Positions 27,794-35,164 of a stretch of 64,000 bases of DNA are shown in pieces. The stretch covers positions 1,116,001 through 1,180,000 of the forward strand of contig NZ_FQLR01000004.1 of the NCBI RefSeq assembly GCF_900119895.1, read 5' to 3'. Under the pieces are notes generated by a model that saw only the letters and a list, made by a program, of their open reading frames with translations, did not search any database and had not been told where the DNA came from. Both the position numbers and the translations under genes were made by a program. Source of the stretch: Collinsella phocaeensis. Its GTDB lineage: Bacteria; Actinomycetota; Coriobacteriia; Coriobacteriales; Coriobacteriaceae. How positions within the stretch are numbered: position 1 is the first letter of the stretch; every line of letters starts with the position of its first letter.

Positions 27794-28739
27794 GGTCGTC
27801 CTCTAGAACACGTTGAATGAGACCAGCAGCCTCAGAAACAGAGAGGCGATCCATATCAAGCCATTGAATCCTGGAATCCCGTCTAAACCAGGAAAGCTGA
27901 CGCTTTGCGTAGCGCCGCGACCTGAGCTTGACCGTCTCGACGGATTCGGAGAGCGTGCAGCGCCCCTCAAGGCAATCAATGATTTCTTTGTATCCTATCG
28001 CCTGACGCGACGTGAGCGCATCGCCCTGACCCCGTTCGAGAAGCGAACGAACCTCATCGACGAGACCCTGTTCGAGCATCCTATCGACTCGGCGGTCGAT
28101 GCGCCCATACAGTCGTTCGCGATCCATGCTCAGCGCGAACTGAACCGAACGGTAATGCGCCCGCGGGCGCGAGAAACCGGAGACCTGCTGAGCATAGGAC
28201 ACGCCTTCATCGAGCATCTCCAGAGCACGAATAACCCTGCGGCTGTTATGGGGATGGATGAGCGCGGCGCTCTCGCTGTCCCGTTCGCGCAGCAGCGCGT
28301 ACAGACCATCATCACCCAGTTGTTCATGAAGCTCGGTATAAACACGACGGCTCGAGCTATCCACCTCTCCGGCGGGAAACTCCATTTCATCAAGCACGGC
28401 GCGAACATACAGCCCCGTGCCTCCACAAAGTATGGAAAGTAGGCCGGAAGCTAGCTGATCATCGATCAGGCGACGAGCGTCCCTTTGAAACAATGCGGCT
28501 GAATACGGCTCATCGACATCGACGACGTCGACCATGTGCAATGGAACCAGACGTTCATCCACAGGGGTCTTGGCGGTACCGATATCCATCCCCCGATACA
28601 CCTGCATCGCATCGGCAGAGATGACAGAGGTGTGCATGCGACGTGCGAGCTCGTCGGCAACAGCGCTCTTCCCGACAGCAGTCGGCCCCAATATGGCTAC
28701 AACGGGACCGGGGAGCGCCGCCTCAAGAGAATCAATCAT
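27780..28739 (-). CDS. miaA: tRNA dimethylallyltransferase
   Basis: A 319-residue enzyme adding a dimethylallyl group to A37 of tRNAs reading UNN codons, producing the substrate of MiaB. The P-loop GPTAVGKS (18-25), ISADAMQVYRGMDIGTAK and the LCGGTGLYVRAV segments are characteristic. The ATG overlaps the miaB stop (ATGA), so MiaB and MiaA are made together. The isoprenoid donor comes from the pathway ending with IspH in this window. Confidence 0.96.
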   Translation of the reverse strand: MIDSLEAALPGPVVAILGPTAVGKSAVADELARRMHTSVISADAMQVYRGMDIGTAKTPVDERLVPLHMVDVVDVDEPYSAALFQRDARRLIDDQLASGLLSILCGGTGLYVRAVLDEMEFPAGEVDSSSRRVYTELHEQLGDDGLYALLRERDSESAALIHPHNSRRVIRALEMLDEGVSYAQQVSGFSRPRAHYRSVQFALSMDRERLYGRIDRRVDRMLEQGLVDEVRSLLERGQGDALTSRQAIGYKEIIDCLEGRCTLSESVETVKLRSRRYAKRQLSWFRRDSRIQWLDMDRLSVSEAAGLIQRVLEDDHVGC

Positions 28740-30094
28740 CTCATGTCGCCCACGATGGAGCCCGAGAGATACCAGGTCTTGGCAGTATCGACCTCGACAT
28801 CGACGATACGGCCGAGCAGCTCCGCAGGATTTGCGCCGGCAGGAACAGGAGCATGGACCGTCTGGTTTTTGGGGCTCTTGCCCTGAAGCATGCCGGGATC
28901 CTTCTTGGAGGTGCCCTCGATCAACATGGGAACCTTCGTATGAAGGTCCTTCTGATTGAAGTCGTATGCAGTGCCCTCAACGACCTTGACGAGCCTGTTG
29001 AAGCGCTCGAGGATCACTTCGCGCGGCGTGTCATCGGGCATCTCGGCTGCAGGCGTGCCGGCACGCTTCGAATAGATGAAGGTGAATGCCTGGGCGTACC
29101 GAGCCTCTTGGGCCAAGGAGATCGTCTGCTCGAAGTCTTCTTCCGTCTCACCCGGAAAACCGACGATGATATCAGTAGACAGGGCGATATCCGGAATCCG
29201 GCCACGGACGCGCTCGATCAGATCAAGATAGTGCTCGCGCGTGTACTTGCGATTCATAAGCTTAAGAATGCGGTTGGAGCCGGACTGAACAGCAAGATGG
29301 AGCTGCGGCATGACTGAAGGAACTTCAGCCATGGCATCGATCGTTTCGGGAAGAAGATCCTTGGGGTGAGAGGAAGTGAAGAAGATGCGCTCAACCCCGG
29401 TCTCGCCGACGGCGCGCAGAAGTTCGGCGAAGCGTGGAGAGCCAAAGCTATCACGTCCGTAGGAGTTTACATTTTGACCAAGCAGCGTGATCTCGCGCAC
29501 ACCAGCCCGTACAAGCCCGGTGACCTCGTCGACGATCTGTTCAAACGAACGGCTCTTCTCGCGTCCGCGCACATATGGAACGATGCAGTACGAACAGAAG
29601 TTGTTGCATCCGGTCATGATGGGCACCCAGGCATGGTAGCTGGTGGCACGATGCCAGGGCATATCCGTAGCGACCCCGGTATCCCCCTCGATGCAACGCA
29701 CGCGGCTGCCACCGCTCTCGAACACGTCGGCAATGAGATCACCGACGTGCGCGATGGAATCGGTGCCGAAGACGACGTCGACGTTGTCAAGATTCTTGAG
29801 CAGGCCCTCACCGTCGCGTTGCGCGATGCAGCCGCCGACGGCTACGACACGTCGACCGGATGGGGGCGCAGGAAGACTTTTGCAAGAGGAGCACTGGCCG
29901 TACAGGCGCGTATCTGCAGCCTCGCGGACGCAGCACGTCATGAAGATGACGATATCGGCGTCCTCGGGACCAGAAACCTCCAGGCACCCGAGAGAATCAA
30001 GAAGACCGCTGACGCGCTCAGAGTCATGAAGATTCATCTGGCAGCCGAATGTGCGGATGAAATACGTCTTGCCGTTGAGAATGGAATTCTGCAT
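28736..30094 (-). CDS. miaB: tRNA-2-methylthio-N6-dimethylallyladenosine synthase
   Basis: A 452-residue radical SAM methylthiotransferase acting on i6A37. It has the N-terminal cluster cysteines (Cys18 in FGCQMN, one near 54 and Cys89), the radical SAM motif CNNFCSYC (Cys163, Cys167, Cys170) and a C-terminal TRAM domain. It is followed by miaA with overlapping codons and preceded by spoVS. The ribosome-binding site is weak (GTAGG). Confidence 0.96.
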   Translation of the reverse strand: MQNSILNGKTYFIRTFGCQMNLHDSERVSGLLDSLGCLEVSGPEDADIVIFMTCCVREAADTRLYGQCSSCKSLPAPPSGRRVVAVGGCIAQRDGEGLLKNLDNVDVVFGTDSIAHVGDLIADVFESGGSRVRCIEGDTGVATDMPWHRATSYHAWVPIMTGCNNFCSYCIVPYVRGREKSRSFEQIVDEVTGLVRAGVREITLLGQNVNSYGRDSFGSPRFAELLRAVGETGVERIFFTSSHPKDLLPETIDAMAEVPSVMPQLHLAVQSGSNRILKLMNRKYTREHYLDLIERVRGRIPDIALSTDIIVGFPGETEEDFEQTISLAQEARYAQAFTFIYSKRAGTPAAEMPDDTPREVILERFNRLVKVVEGTAYDFNQKDLHTKVPMLIEGTSKKDPGMLQGKSPKNQTVHAPVPAGANPAELLGRIVDVEVDTAKTWYLSGSIVGDMR

Positions 30095-30097
30095 AAC

Positions 30098-30418
30098 CTA
30101 CCCGACTCGAAGATTATCGTCGGCGATATCGAACGCATCACCGGAATGGGCTGAAATCGAATGAACATAGACGGAAAGCCTGATAGCCGTGCGGCTCTCG
30201 CCGTTGATGAGGATATCGGAGAATACCGGTGCGCACGAGATGTCGAAACCCGTCGGAATGAGAAAACCGCGAGCTATGGCCACGGCTTTAATGGCCTGGT
30301 TGACGGCACCCGCCCCGACGCATTGGATGTTAACGGGAACGCCGTCTTTAACCATGCCCGCAATTGCGCCGGCAACGGAAGCGGGCGAAGATTTGCTCGA
30401 TACCTTCAGGAATTCCAT
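30098..30418 (-). CDS. spoVS: SpoVS-like protein with C-terminal extension
   Basis: A 106-residue protein whose first 85 residues match stage V sporulation protein S: EFLKVSSKSSPASVAGAIAG, VGAGAVNQAIKAVAIARGF and INGESRTAIRLSV. The Bacillus protein has about 86 residues; here about 20 extra residues follow (ending DIADDNLRVG). SpoVS has an Alba-like fold and is found in non-sporulating bacteria too, so sporulation is not implied. ATG at 30418 fits the family; an ATG at 30427 with GGAG only two bases away is the alternative. It lies between the GHKL gene and miaB. Confidence 0.88.
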   Translation of the reverse strand: MEFLKVSSKSSPASVAGAIAGMVKDGVPVNIQCVGAGAVNQAIKAVAIARGFLIPTGFDISCAPVFSDILINGESRTAIRLSVYVHSISAHSGDAFDIADDNLRVG

Positions 30419-30463
30419 GAGTACCATTTCTCCAGCGTGTGTAGTGCATTTAATCTGCTCAAA

Positions 30464-30495: not shown

Positions 30496-31581
30496 TCAGT
30501 CATCTTTGCCGATATCAAAGCTGATCGTTATGCGATCACGCGTAACACGAACCTTGGGCTCAGAAGGACAGCTGAGGTAATATCGGTCAGCAAGATCGGA
30601 AAAGCTCTTTTCAACCGATCGAGTGAATCGATCGAGGTCTTCGGATGAGATCTTCAGACCGCGGCGATCGCGAACAAGATCGACGGAGACGGGCTTGCGC
30701 GAAGTCGCGCCGCGCTCACGAAGCAACCGCGAGGACACGCTCTTAAGGGGCTGAAGAGCACCCGACAAGATGCGGTGGGCGGTCCGCTCGGAAACGTCGA
30801 TGCCGATGCTGTGGGCGATGGCGATAAAATCAGACGCATCGGCAGCATACCCGAGTCGGTCGATGACGGGCAGCTCCTCGGGGTCGTCGGTGAAAAGATA
30901 CGTACTCGCCTCGACCGATGATGAGGCATGCGCATAAAGCGTCGCGGCGATCTCGGTAGGCGAACCGAGATAGACATCGCATCCATGCAGCTCTTCGAGG
31001 GCAAACTCGCATGCCGTGCGAATGATGTTGTGCGGACCTTTGGTGCAGACCACCACACCGTCGTCCCCACGCGCCGCCGACGGCCACGTCGACTGATCGG
31101 TGCGCTCAGAGAGAGACGAGGTGTCCGCGACCACTCGAAACGAACTACCGAGTTGCATGCCGGATGCCACAACTTGAGCGACCATGCAGTTTTGACGAAT
31201 CGAGAACAGAGCCATGCCGCGACCGTGAACGCCCCATCGATCCATTTTGATGGTCTCGAGTTTCGAGGTCACACGCGCATCGAAGATGCGTTCGCGCATA
31301 TCCTCGGGAACACCTGAGCCGTTATCAAAGAAGAGGAGGGTGCGCACACCCTCCTCTTTCTGCATGGCGACATAGATCTTGGAGGCACCGGCGTCACGAG
31401 CGTTGCGCAGCATCTCGATAACGACATCTTCAACATGCTGAATATCGTGCTTCGCTTGGCGCCGCTCGGCCTCCGAGACACGAAGCTTGACGAAGCCCTC
31501 ACCAAGATTCTCCTCGACACGGAGGTTTCCCTCACCTGTCATGGAGGCGATGAACGAGATGAGCTCACGCGAATCGCCCAT
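30496..31581 (-). CDS. GHKL-fold ATPase with MutL-like motifs, function unknown
   Basis: A 361-residue protein. The N-terminal ATPase core shows the Bergerat-fold motifs: N-box EMLRNARDAG (56-65), DNGSGVP (86-92), ARVTSK (102-107) and GVHGRGMALFSI (117-128). Their spacing and wording resemble MutL (ELVxNxxDAGA, DNGxG, ATSK, GFRGEALxSI) more than histidine kinases, Hsp90 or gyrase B. The rest (about 140-361) has no domain I recognise and lacks MutL's C-terminal dimerisation/endonuclease region. It follows rny by five bases and precedes spoVS, suggesting one operon. No mutS is in the window. I do not assign a role. Confidence 0.8.
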   Translation of the reverse strand: MGDSRELISFIASMTGEGNLRVEENLGEGFVKLRVSEAERRQAKHDIQHVEDVVIEMLRNARDAGASKIYVAMQKEEGVRTLLFFDNGSGVPEDMRERIFDARVTSKLETIKMDRWGVHGRGMALFSIRQNCMVAQVVASGMQLGSSFRVVADTSSLSERTDQSTWPSAARGDDGVVVCTKGPHNIIRTACEFALEELHGCDVYLGSPTEIAATLYAHASSSVEASTYLFTDDPEELPVIDRLGYAADASDFIAIAHSIGIDVSERTAHRILSGALQPLKSVSSRLLRERGATSRKPVSVDLVRDRRGLKISSEDLDRFTRSVEKSFSDLADRYYLSCPSEPKVRVTRDRITISFDIGKDD

Positions 31582-31586
31582 AGCGG

Positions 31587-33137
31587 CTACTTGGCGATAT
31601 CGACGGCGCGACTCTCGCGAATGACCACAACGCGCACCTGACCGGGATACTCCATCTCGTTCTCGATCTGCTGAGCGATGTCATGCGCCAGAACCGTGGA
31701 CTGGGCATCAGAGATCTTGTCAGGCTGAACCATGACATGGACCTCACGACCGGCCTGCATGGCATAGGTACGCTCGACGCCGTCATGAGAATTAGCGATC
31801 TCCTCGAGCTTCTCAAGGCGCTTGATGTAATTCTCGGCGGACTCGCGACGGGCGCCCGGACGGGATGCAGAAATGGCATCGCCGGCCTGAACGAGAACTG
31901 CAAGAACGGTATTAGGATCGACGTCGCCGTGATGGGCCTCGATAGCATGGACGATAACGGGCTTCTCGCCGTAACGACGGGCAAGATCGGCACCGATGAC
32001 GGCATGGGGACCCTCGACATCATGGTCGATGGCCTTTCCGAGGTCATGAAGCAGGCCGGCACGCTTGGCGGTCATGACGTCGACACCAAGCTCGGCGGCC
32101 ATGATTCCGCACAGCTCGGAAACCTCGAGCGAATGCTGCAGGACGTTCTGCCCGAAGGAGGTACGATAGCGCAGAGCGCCCAGGGTTCTGACGATCTCAG
32201 GATGCAGGTCATGGATCCCCGTATCGAAGGCGGCCTGTTCGCCCGCCTCGCGAACGCGCTGGTTAACGAGATCGGCGGCCTTGTGGTACATCTCCTCGAT
32301 GCGCGCCGGATGGATACGGCCATCTGCGATGAGGTTCTCCAGCGCAACGCGAGCGGTCTCGCGACGAACCGGATCGAAACTGGACAGCACGACCGTCTCG
32401 GGCGTATCGTCGATGACGAGATTGACGCCGGAAACCTGCTCGAACGTACGGATATTGCGGCCTTCGCGTCCGATGATGCGACCTTTGAGGTCATCCGAGG
32501 GAATATGGACCGAAGTGACGGTGACCTCAGCGGTATGGTCGGCGGCGCAACGCTGGATGGCGAGGGAGATGATCTCCTGAGCAGTCTTGTGGCACTCGGC
32601 GCGAACCTGCTGCTCGGACTCACGGATGATGGCGGCGGCCTCATGGGTGACCTCACCGCGGACCTTGTCGAGAAGCTCATGATGCGCATCGTCGCGCGTC
32701 AGCTCAGAGATGCGCTCGAGCTCGGAAGTCTGCCTCGACATGAGTTCATCAAGTTCGCGAGAACGCTTATCGAGCTGTCCGGCCTGGCTGGAAAGCTGGT
32801 GCTCGCGCTTATCGAGCGCCTCGTTGCGACGATCGAGACTCTCTTCGCGCTGCATAACGCGGTTCTCAAGAGAGCGAAGCTCGCGCTTGCGCTGCTTCTC
32901 CTCGGCCTCGGCGGCCTGCTTGCCCTGGATGATCTCCTCCTTGGCCTCGAGCAGCGCCTCTTTCTTAAGGGTTTCTGCCGTCCGCTTGGCATCGCCGATA
33001 ACCTGCTCGGCCTCCGCATGAGCCGACTGAATCTTCGAGTCGGCCTCACGGAGGCTGCCGTTCTTGGCGCTGCGCATGGCGAACACGGCAGCGGCGGCCC
33101 CGATCAGGAGGCCAACGATACCGAAGACGAATTCCAT
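31587..33137 (-). CDS. rny: Ribonuclease Y
   Basis: A 516-residue membrane-anchored endoribonuclease starting bulk mRNA decay. One N-terminal transmembrane helix (about 4-22), a long charged coiled coil (30-200), a KH domain ([15 protein letters not shown]) and an HD domain with [12 protein letters not shown]. The ATG at 33137 has AAGGAG eight bases upstream; the in-frame ATG at 33167 precedes that site and would put ten residues ahead of the membrane helix. RNase J and PNPase genes are also in this window. Confidence 0.96.
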
Positions 33138-33218
33138 GCTGTGTTCTCCTTTGTAGTATTCAGACAAAACGGCACGCCGCGAAGGACGTGCTCGACATTT
33201 GCTAGGGTATGGTCACCC

Positions 33219-33247: not shown

Positions 33248-33348
33248 TCTCATCGATGATGAGCGCATATCACATAACAAATGACATGTTAATCCTACGT
33301 TTACATAGTACTTCTGTCAAACACCGCGCACGATAAACAGGTTCAAGT

Positions 33349-33375
33349 GCAACGGGGCGGCAAGCCCTGGAACCT
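33349..33375 (-). terminator. Hairpin at the end of recX, probable terminator
   Basis: AGGTTC (33349-33354) pairs with GAACCT (33370-33375), enclosing a GGGC/GCCC inner stem. It begins at the recX stop codon and is followed on the minus strand by GTTTATCG. The T run is short. The remaining recX-rny gap (33138-33348) holds the rny promoter region and no gene. Confidence 0.45.
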
Positions 33376-34045
33376 ATGCCTCCACGTTCGCCTCCAGAAT
33401 TTGCGAAACGGCTCGACGGGCAACGGAGCCGTCGAATCCCCGATTCAACAGATGCCGCACCAGTCGTTCGAAGGCCTTGGTGTCCGGAACGCGCTTTCGG
33501 CGCAATACGTCTAACGCGAGCTCGAATTCTCTTCCGTCGGGGAAAAACCTCTCGGGATACCCCTCGATCGAAGAGATGTCGATACCTTTCAACTTCAATT
33601 CGGCTGCAATCTTACGGGGACCCCAGCCTCGACGAATGCGCTCCTCGATGAAATAGCCCGCAAACCGACGATCGTCCACGAATCTATGGGACCGGGCACG
33701 ATCGAGAGCAGAAGCTATCTCTTGCTCCCTGAATCCATACAGCCGAAGCTTGCGGTGCAGCTCGGCCTCGGCATGGTCGCGACGCGATAGCATCTCAGTC
33801 GCCATAGCGAAGGCGACGCGCTCTTCGAGCGCATGCACGGCATCGAACGCAGCGTCCTCTTCCATCGGGAGAGGGATGGGATCCTCGCGCAGCAAACGAC
33901 CGACTCGCGTGGGAACGACGATCTCGCGTATGCGTCCATCCTCAAGCTCGACCGATACGGCTGCCATGGGCTTTCTGCCGAACGAGGCCGCCCGGGCACG
34001 GGCGGCCTCGTTCGGAAGATCGACATGAAACGATATGACGTCCAT
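33374..34045 (-). CDS. recX: Regulatory protein RecX
   Basis: A 223-residue all-helical modulator that limits RecA filament growth. The tandem three-helix repeats contain EMLSRRDHAEAELHRKL, RFVDDRRFAGYFIEER and GWGPRKIAAELKLKGI, typical of RecX. The N-terminal 50 residues (DLPNEAARARAASFG) form an extension beyond the short family form, common in actinobacteria. It follows recA by 12 bases and would be induced with it. Confidence 0.93.
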   Translation of the reverse strand: MDVISFHVDLPNEAARARAASFGRKPMAAVSVELEDGRIREIVVPTRVGRLLREDPIPLPMEEDAAFDAVHALEERVAFAMATEMLSRRDHAEAELHRKLRLYGFREQEIASALDRARSHRFVDDRRFAGYFIEERIRRGWGPRKIAAELKLKGIDISSIEGYPERFFPDGREFELALDVLRRKRVPDTKAFERLVRHLLNRGFDGSVARRAVSQILEANVEA

Positions 34046-34057
34046 GGTCGCAGGCCA

Positions 34058-35164
34058 CTACATGACGTCGGAAGACGAATCTCCCATTAGGGCCGCATCA
34101 ACAGCCTCGCCCGTAGGCTCGTCTTCAAAATCAAGTCCGCACGCAACGCGCACGCGGTGCTCTATCTCCTCAGAAAGCGGCGGATTGGTGCGCAGGAACT
34201 CCTTTGCGGCCTCGCGACCTTGCCCCAAGCGATCTTCACCATAGGTGTACCACGAACCGGCCTTCTTGACGATTCCGTAATCGACGCCCATGTCGAGCAA
34301 CGAGCCCTCTTTGGAGATTCCCGTTCCGTACATGATGTCGAACTCTGCGGTTTTGAAGGGAGCCGCCACCTTGTTCTTTACGATCTTGCACCGCACGCGA
34401 TTGCCCACGATCTCGTCCTTCTGCTTGATGCTATCGATACGCCTGATATCGATGCGCACGGATGAAAAGAACTTGAGCGCACGACCACCGGTCGTGGTCT
34501 CAGGATTGCCGAACATGACGCCGATCTTCTCACGCAGCTGGTTGATGAAGATGCAGGTGGTCCTGGATTTAGCGAGCGAACCCGCAAGCTTGCGCAGAGC
34601 CTGGCTCATCAGGCGCGCCTGCAGACCGACCGAGGAATCTCCGATCTCGCCCTCGATCTCCGCACGTGGGACGAGCGCGGCAACGGAGTCGATGACGATG
34701 ACATCGATGGCACCCGAGCGCACAAGCATGTCGCAGATTTCCAGAGCCTGCTCGCCGGTATCCGGCTGAGAGATAAGAACTTCGTCGATGTCGACACCGA
34801 TGCGCGCCGCATACGTGGGATCGAGGGCGTGCTCGGCGTCGATGAACGCAACGACACCGCCTTGCGCCTGGGCTTCCGCAAGGATCTCAAGGGAAAGCGT
34901 CGTCTTGCCCGATGACTCGGGACCATAGATCTCGATGATGCGCCCGCGCGGAACGCCGCCGATGCCAAGCGCGGCGTCGAGCGCGAGCGCTCCGGTCGGA
35001 ATGGCCTCGACCTCGAGCTCGGGCCCGCCGTCGCCATAGCGCATGATCGATCCGTCGCCGAATTTCTTGATGATCTCCGCCTTGGTGGCGTCAACCATCC
35101 TGTCGCGCTCCTCGCCATACGTGCGCTCGTGGATCTGCCGCGCCGGTCCTGAACTCTTAGCCAT
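34058..35164 (-). CDS. recA: Recombinase RecA
   Basis: A 368-residue recombinase and coprotease for LexA cleavage. Walker A is GPESSGKT (81-88); [13 protein letters not shown], the L1/L2 loops and [22 protein letters not shown] are present. The C-terminal tail is acidic. GGGAGG precedes the ATG. No intein interrupts it, unlike in some mycobacteria. The promoter contains a perfect LexA box. Confidence 0.98.

Follow-up and report, generated by a model that had tools for sequence, protein, structure and literature searches.

A MutL-type GHKL ATPase gene directly behind rny in Coriobacteriia and other Actinomycetota: a candidate partner of RNase Y

Background

RNase Y initiates mRNA decay in many bacteria, and we know of no director of this enzyme outside Bacillota. 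Directly behind rny, the RNase Y gene, the Collinsella genome analysed here (2.1 Mb) carries a gene for a MutL-like protein of the GHKL ATPase superfamily. Does this GHKL protein serve RNA decay or DNA mismatch repair? The gut class Coriobacteriia is without known mismatch repair (PMC5290159), all its good genomes keep this MutL-type ATPase, and the function of the protein bears on whether the class truly lacks such repair. Our literature search returned no paper linking a GHKL or Bergerat ATPase to RNase Y, and none naming Coriobacteriia together with RNase Y. An earlier sequence-only reading of the window (the whole stretch of 64,000 nucleotides that was analysed, part of the Collinsella genome) had proposed a MutL-derived or independent GHKL switch working with RNase Y or SpoVS.

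Results and discussion

The gene and its surroundings

The open reading frame at 30496..31581 on the minus strand is a real gene for a protein of 361 residues with exactly the coordinates first read from the letters; its ATG lies at 31581 and its stop codon ends at 30496. It is no chance frame: Pfam matches exceed their cut-offs, 83 of 83 homologues match, and on the plus strand this interval is interrupted by stop codons. As had been described, the gene sits between rny (31587..33167, minus strand), 5 nt upstream, and spoVS (30098..30427, minus strand), 68 nt downstream; spoVS is the next gene here and is absent in many relatives. After a further 3 nt comes miaB (28736..30094, minus strand), which together with miaA and hflX makes up the remainder of the apparent operon. 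Upstream of rny we find recX (33374-34045) and recA (34058-35164), and the complete order pgsA-cinA-recA-recX-rny-GHKL-spoVS-miaB-miaA-hflX is on the minus strand. A promoter-like site upstream of rny (TTGACA-17-TAGGAT, 33292..33320, minus strand) is a consensus match of a kind found in numbers not above those in shuffled sequence. Rfam yielded no RNA elements in the recA-rny-GHKL-spoVS block. A Collinsella aerofaciens record shows an identical order around the gene, annotated there merely as 'ATP-binding protein'.

A side observation concerns locus L252 (NZ_OY725717.1 29255-48337), which belongs to a 900-kb Collinsella aerofaciens record labelled 'plasmid 6'. Core genes, among them recA, rny, miaB and lexA, are present on it, and it seems to be either chromosomal sequence submitted under a plasmid label or a second replicon that carries core genes.

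A MutL-type ATPase domain without the rest of MutL

The Bergerat-fold (GHKL) ATPase domain covers about residues 46-153 (31123..31446, minus strand). All four motifs that had been read by eye are present and intact: EMLRNARDAG at residues 56-65, DNGSGVP at 86-92, ARVTSK at 102-107 and GVHGRGMALFSI at 117-128. Pfam assigns HATPase_c_3 (E 2.8e-8, residues 50-134) and HATPase_c (PF02518, 1.4e-7) to the window protein, both above the curated cut-offs, and a HATPase match is seen in each of the 83 aligned homologues. Across this alignment N60, D86, G90, T105 and G122 are invariant, E56 (by position the equivalent of MutL E29) and G120 are kept in 82 sequences, and the further catalytic-site residues D63, G88, S106, K107 and G117 are nearly invariant. 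ATP-site residues being so strongly kept, we conclude that ATP binding is under selection. Other invariant residues are private to the family: E37, R41 and E51 ahead of the ATPase domain and Q163, N185, S264 and R270 past it, with R266 in 82/83.

Profile and predicted structure both place the domain closest to MutL, and the view of the protein as a MutL-type ATPase lacking the rest of MutL holds up well. Searched against the PDB, the 83-sequence profile finds Aquifex aeolicus MutL with E 6e-10, ahead of the histidine kinase CckA (4e-5), MORC2 (1.5e-3) and GyrB (0.6). An hhalign comparison with the true MutL of family f40 aligns the N-terminal half (P 5e-12, 33% identity, 96 columns). For the AlphaFold model of the full protein (pLDDT 90.4, pTM 0.76) the top VIA-align match is Bacillus subtilis MutL (Z 13.2, 2.9 A, 144 residues), followed by Mlh1, other MutL structures and TopoVI-B and then by PMS2, GyrB, ParE and topoisomerase II; Foldseek ranks histidine kinases and MutL alike (E about 1e-4).

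Outside this domain the likeness ends. The NCBIfam MutL model scores 36.3 bits over residues 49-130 only, against a cut-off of 180. As expected from the first reading, the window protein has no match to a MutL C-terminal domain; nor does it match the S5 domain (PF01119) at E<=10, and PF01119 is not among the families listed for the 83 homologues at E<=1. The S5 domain of MutL bears a catalytic lysine; because this domain is unrecognised in the GHKL protein, ATP hydrolysis is only putative. No characterised GHKL family was found to match the protein over its whole length.

Distribution of the gene

A match is present in 56 of 58 relatives, nearly all of them with one full-length copy. Within Coriobacteriia the gene occurs, as a single copy, in 147/149 genomes and in all 124 good ones, and it is therefore a core gene of the class. 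Among 296 Actinomycetota genomes drawn evenly, a single-sequence search finds it in 118. The profile built from 83 homologues recovers the same 118 plus only two weak matches to other GHKL proteins, which gives the family a sharp boundary. For the copies of family f40, the search with one sequence detected little beyond the ATPase domain, but the profile match spans positions 24-361, which makes these copies full-length orthologues as well.

The RNase_Y_N domain is found in 219 of the 296 genomes, including 117 of the 118 with the GHKL gene. In the one exception, G410, the genome is 79% complete and the GHKL gene is truncated, missing its first 50 residues. RNase Y is not generally dependent on the GHKL protein, since about 102 of the sampled genomes with rny do not have its gene. 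SpoVS occurs in 95 genomes (94 above the cut-off), 83 of them GHKL-positive. The remaining 35 GHKL-positive genomes, which have no detectable SpoVS, comprise all 26 of f40, seven of family f49 and two others; at least 10 sampled genomes have SpoVS and no GHKL gene.

Pairing with rny

In the neighbourhood survey, which covered 79 fetched loci of 38 family-level groups without the Collinsella's own family, the GHKL gene comes immediately after rny and in the same orientation every time (79/79). The gap between the two genes has a median of 47 nt and stays within 250 nt in 72 loci; seven gaps are larger, and in L130 the enlarged gap contains a small ORF. Downstream, spoVS follows on the same strand in 59/79 loci, mostly 60-180 nt away, and can be missing from the neighbourhood in f40, f49, f11 and f13. 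The pair is kept even where its surroundings change. In L098 both flanks are replaced, with no recA upstream and no spoVS or miaB downstream. In the rearranged block of L094 ruvC-ruvA-ruvB take the place of spoVS-miaB (GHKL-ruv stretch L094:6992-10310), in L100 carA-like and carB-like genes follow, and in L091 a phosphoglucomutase-like gene is inserted between the GHKL gene and spoVS. Most lineages without the GHKL gene have spoVS, miaB or a PHP-domain gene directly behind rny, which argues that the slot itself is stable.

The constant partner of the GHKL gene is therefore rny and not spoVS; SpoVS is dispensable. Of the rny-GHKL-spoVS arrangement that had been put forward for a survey, the first half is conserved far past the genus, with the place beside rny kept in every fetched locus, while the second is not, given the 35 of 118 genomes without SpoVS.

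Two further kinds of gene were seen in passing. A PHP-domain phosphoesterase-like gene recurs before miaB, after spoVS or the GHKL gene, in many relatives (L130:5757-6590, L091:5229-6128 and L147:6128-6970 in the neighbourhood survey). It is absent from the spoVS-miaB position in the window, and in L238 and L243, from lineages without the GHKL gene, it stands directly behind rny. Near the rny-GHKL pair, two loci from members of one family hold related small genes, at L098:6230-6808 and L094:11493-12077, beginning DETGVLALVDELSDLIEDGKPALGNRD and DDTNVYELLDALSNLIDGGKPVLGNRDK.

A proposed partner of RNase Y

Synteny and fold lead us to propose, at a probability of roughly 0.5, that the GHKL protein is an ATP-dependent partner dedicated to RNase Y, acting as an adaptor or switch. 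It would then probably serve RNA decay and not DNA mismatch repair. By analogy with GHKL proteins of the MutL, GyrB and Hsp90 type, ATP binding may be followed by dimerisation or closure of the GHKL domain. The C-terminal region would contact RNase Y, its nucleic-acid substrate or both, and the ATP state would switch the place or time of cutting. The protein might in this way resemble RicT and its partners in Bacillus subtilis, as an adaptor of specificity or localisation.

Among the candidate partners, RNase Y is the one that the pairing pattern favours most, and of the two first suggested for the switch it is the one that remains, SpoVS not being constant. Evolutionary rates lend this reading no support. 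In a mirror-tree test from which the background of recA, miaB and miaA was removed, the GHKL protein shows no covariation with RNase Y above background (partial r 0.03, p 0.33) and a negative value with SpoVS (-0.18); covariation is highest for miaA, which we take as shared divergence. As nothing specific to rny emerged from the rates, we put the RNase Y reading no higher than the value above; the adjacency could reflect co-expression only. Being universal, single-copy and ATP-binding, and encoded behind rny in 38 family-level groups, the GHKL protein offers a concrete candidate for a director of RNase Y. We suggest more tentatively still that a MutL-like ATP-gated clamp runs RNase Y in a deep branch of Actinomycetota, which would make it the first GHKL ATPase with a dedicated part in mRNA decay. 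If true, this clamp would be the ATP-driven counterpart of the Bacillus Y-complex.

The C-terminal region and a DNA-binding alternative

Neither Pfam nor NCBIfam has a model that matches residues 183-361 of the window protein (30499..31035, minus strand), in agreement with the unrecognised sequence noted before; the region comprises about 180 residues. Modelled alone, these 179 residues form a confident structure (pLDDT 91, pTM 0.60); Foldseek finds nothing better than E 1.3 for it, which is no proof of a new fold. Within the region, residues 249-273 (30763..30837, minus strand; GIDVSERTAHRIL) resemble a helix-turn-helix by eye, are modelled by AlphaFold as two helices with a turn, and carry a conserved S-x-R-xxx-R (invariant S264 and R270, near-invariant R266), a tentative assignment on weak evidence.

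On this segment hinges the rival that survives best, although we consider it improbable: an ATP-sensing regulator whose C-terminal helix-turn-helix binds DNA, perhaps its own recA/rny promoter, with the GHKL domain gating the binding. Structure alignment of the C-terminal model does bring up winged-helix repressors over residues 204-279, namely ArgR (Z 4.2, 50 residues), VanR, Fur and BusR, and single homologues match HTH_3 (1.4e-4) or HTH_31. All these structural Z scores are below 5, however, and the segment is not basic, being acidic or neutral on average (mean net charge -0.7 over residues 246-295 and +0.7 over the putative recognition helix). The invariant serine and arginine might instead serve packing or ATP sensing. 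Kinship with ArgR, which eye and structure alignment had raised, finds no support in a profile comparison of the family with 28 ArgR sequences (P 0.4, not significant). Nucleic-acid binding by the modelled C-terminal region is possible.

A second rival differs from the RNase Y reading in mechanism alone and appears doubtful. Here the protein would be an Hsp90-like maturation factor or a membrane-assembly helper that acts on RNase Y itself without steering its substrates. It shares the rny synteny and the GHKL fold as evidence, and the tight spacing of the genes would permit co-translational assembly, but no middle or client-binding domain is recognisable.

Mismatch repair

Does the gene stand in for MutL? 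In Coriobacteriia no MutL is found, MutS_I is found in 0/59 genomes (11/14 in the control rings), NucS gives no credible match but only short, marginal fragments, and our own Collinsella genome is without any PF01119 match at all. The earlier question whether genomes with the gene lack mutS and mutL is thus answered with yes for this class. MutL (PF01119 above the cut-off) occurs in 26 of the 296 Actinomycetota genomes, all of family f40, and each of them also has the GHKL gene. It has been reported that Rubrobacteria possess MutS-MutL and that Coriobacteriia have neither these nor NucS (PMC5290159), and on this basis f40 probably represents Rubrobacteria.

A DNA-repair protein that replaces MutL where MutS, MutL and NucS are absent, working with the adjacent recA and recX, would agree with this gene complement, with the ATPase domain being nearest to MutL and with recA and recX lying just upstream. 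We nevertheless regard it as unlikely. MutL and the GHKL gene coexist in all 26 f40 genomes, many MutL-negative Actinomycetota do without the GHKL gene, the gene is still found beside rny in L098, from which recA is gone, and it comes with neither a MutS-type partner nor a nuclease domain. We reject both a MutL-derived replacement and a MutL remnant, given this coexistence, the missing S5 domain and the missing MutL C-terminus. That the protein belongs to a third, so far undescribed mismatch-repair route in Coriobacteriia is very improbable indeed.

Weaker than repair by MutL replacement is a partnership with the Alba-like nucleic-acid binder SpoVS, with rny as a mere neighbour, since the frequent downstream spoVS is outweighed by its absence from 35 GHKL-positive genomes, its presence in at least 10 others without the GHKL gene and the negative rate covariation.

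Comparison with known systems

With the N-terminal ATPase of MutL, Mlh1 and PMS2 the GHKL protein has the fold and motifs I-III in common (E..N, DxGxG, TSK...GxxG). It differs in having neither the S5/DNA_mis_repair domain nor a C-terminal dimerisation or endonuclease domain, in its G2 loop (GVHGRGMAL, where MutL has GFRGEAL) and in its private N-terminal extension (with E37 and R41) and C-terminal region.

Histidine kinases share the ATP-binding fold and the PF02518 match. The GHKL protein, in contrast, lacks HisKA/DHp and a kinase G box and has a MutL-type TSK lid with the HGRGMAL loop. Only HATPase models match, CckA (4e-5) is a weaker hit than MutL (6e-10), and of the 45 residues preceding the ATPase domain, where a kinase would carry its phospho-accepting histidine, H45 is present in only 55/83 homologues; we reject this identity. 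A defence gene is rejected as well: PADLOC gives only a weak GHKL match (TmtA, 2.3e-4), and no relatives of the family were found in phages or viral contigs.

In Bacillus the slot between rny and spoVS is presumably occupied by the gene for YmdB. YmdB is a metallophosphoesterase. It was not found in eight sampled Coriobacteriia, but in family f33 and some f40 genomes it is located elsewhere alongside the GHKL gene. Because these genomes hold both, there is no simple exchange, and the idea of a functional replacement is weakened.

MORC and paraMORC proteins are prokaryotic MutL-like ATPases outside mismatch repair, with an S5 domain and restriction-type operons (PMC2292703). The likeness lies in a GHKL domain from the MutL-like side of the superfamily, of which bacterial members are known (PMC2292703). 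Whereas those genes stand in restriction-modification operons with SFII helicases, the GHKL gene stands behind rny, encodes no S5 domain and has been inherited vertically as part of the core genome, with recA, recX, rny, spoVS and miaB as neighbours.

The described cofactors of RNase Y are the Ric/Y-complex proteins RicT-RicA-RicF of B. subtilis (PMC10470536). Their likeness to the GHKL protein is limited to the proposed role of a dedicated factor steering RNase Y; they are unrelated to it, and there is no GHKL ATPase among them. The GHKL protein is neither a Ric/Y-complex nor a MORC/paraMORC protein, but a new, undescribed family within the known GHKL superfamily.
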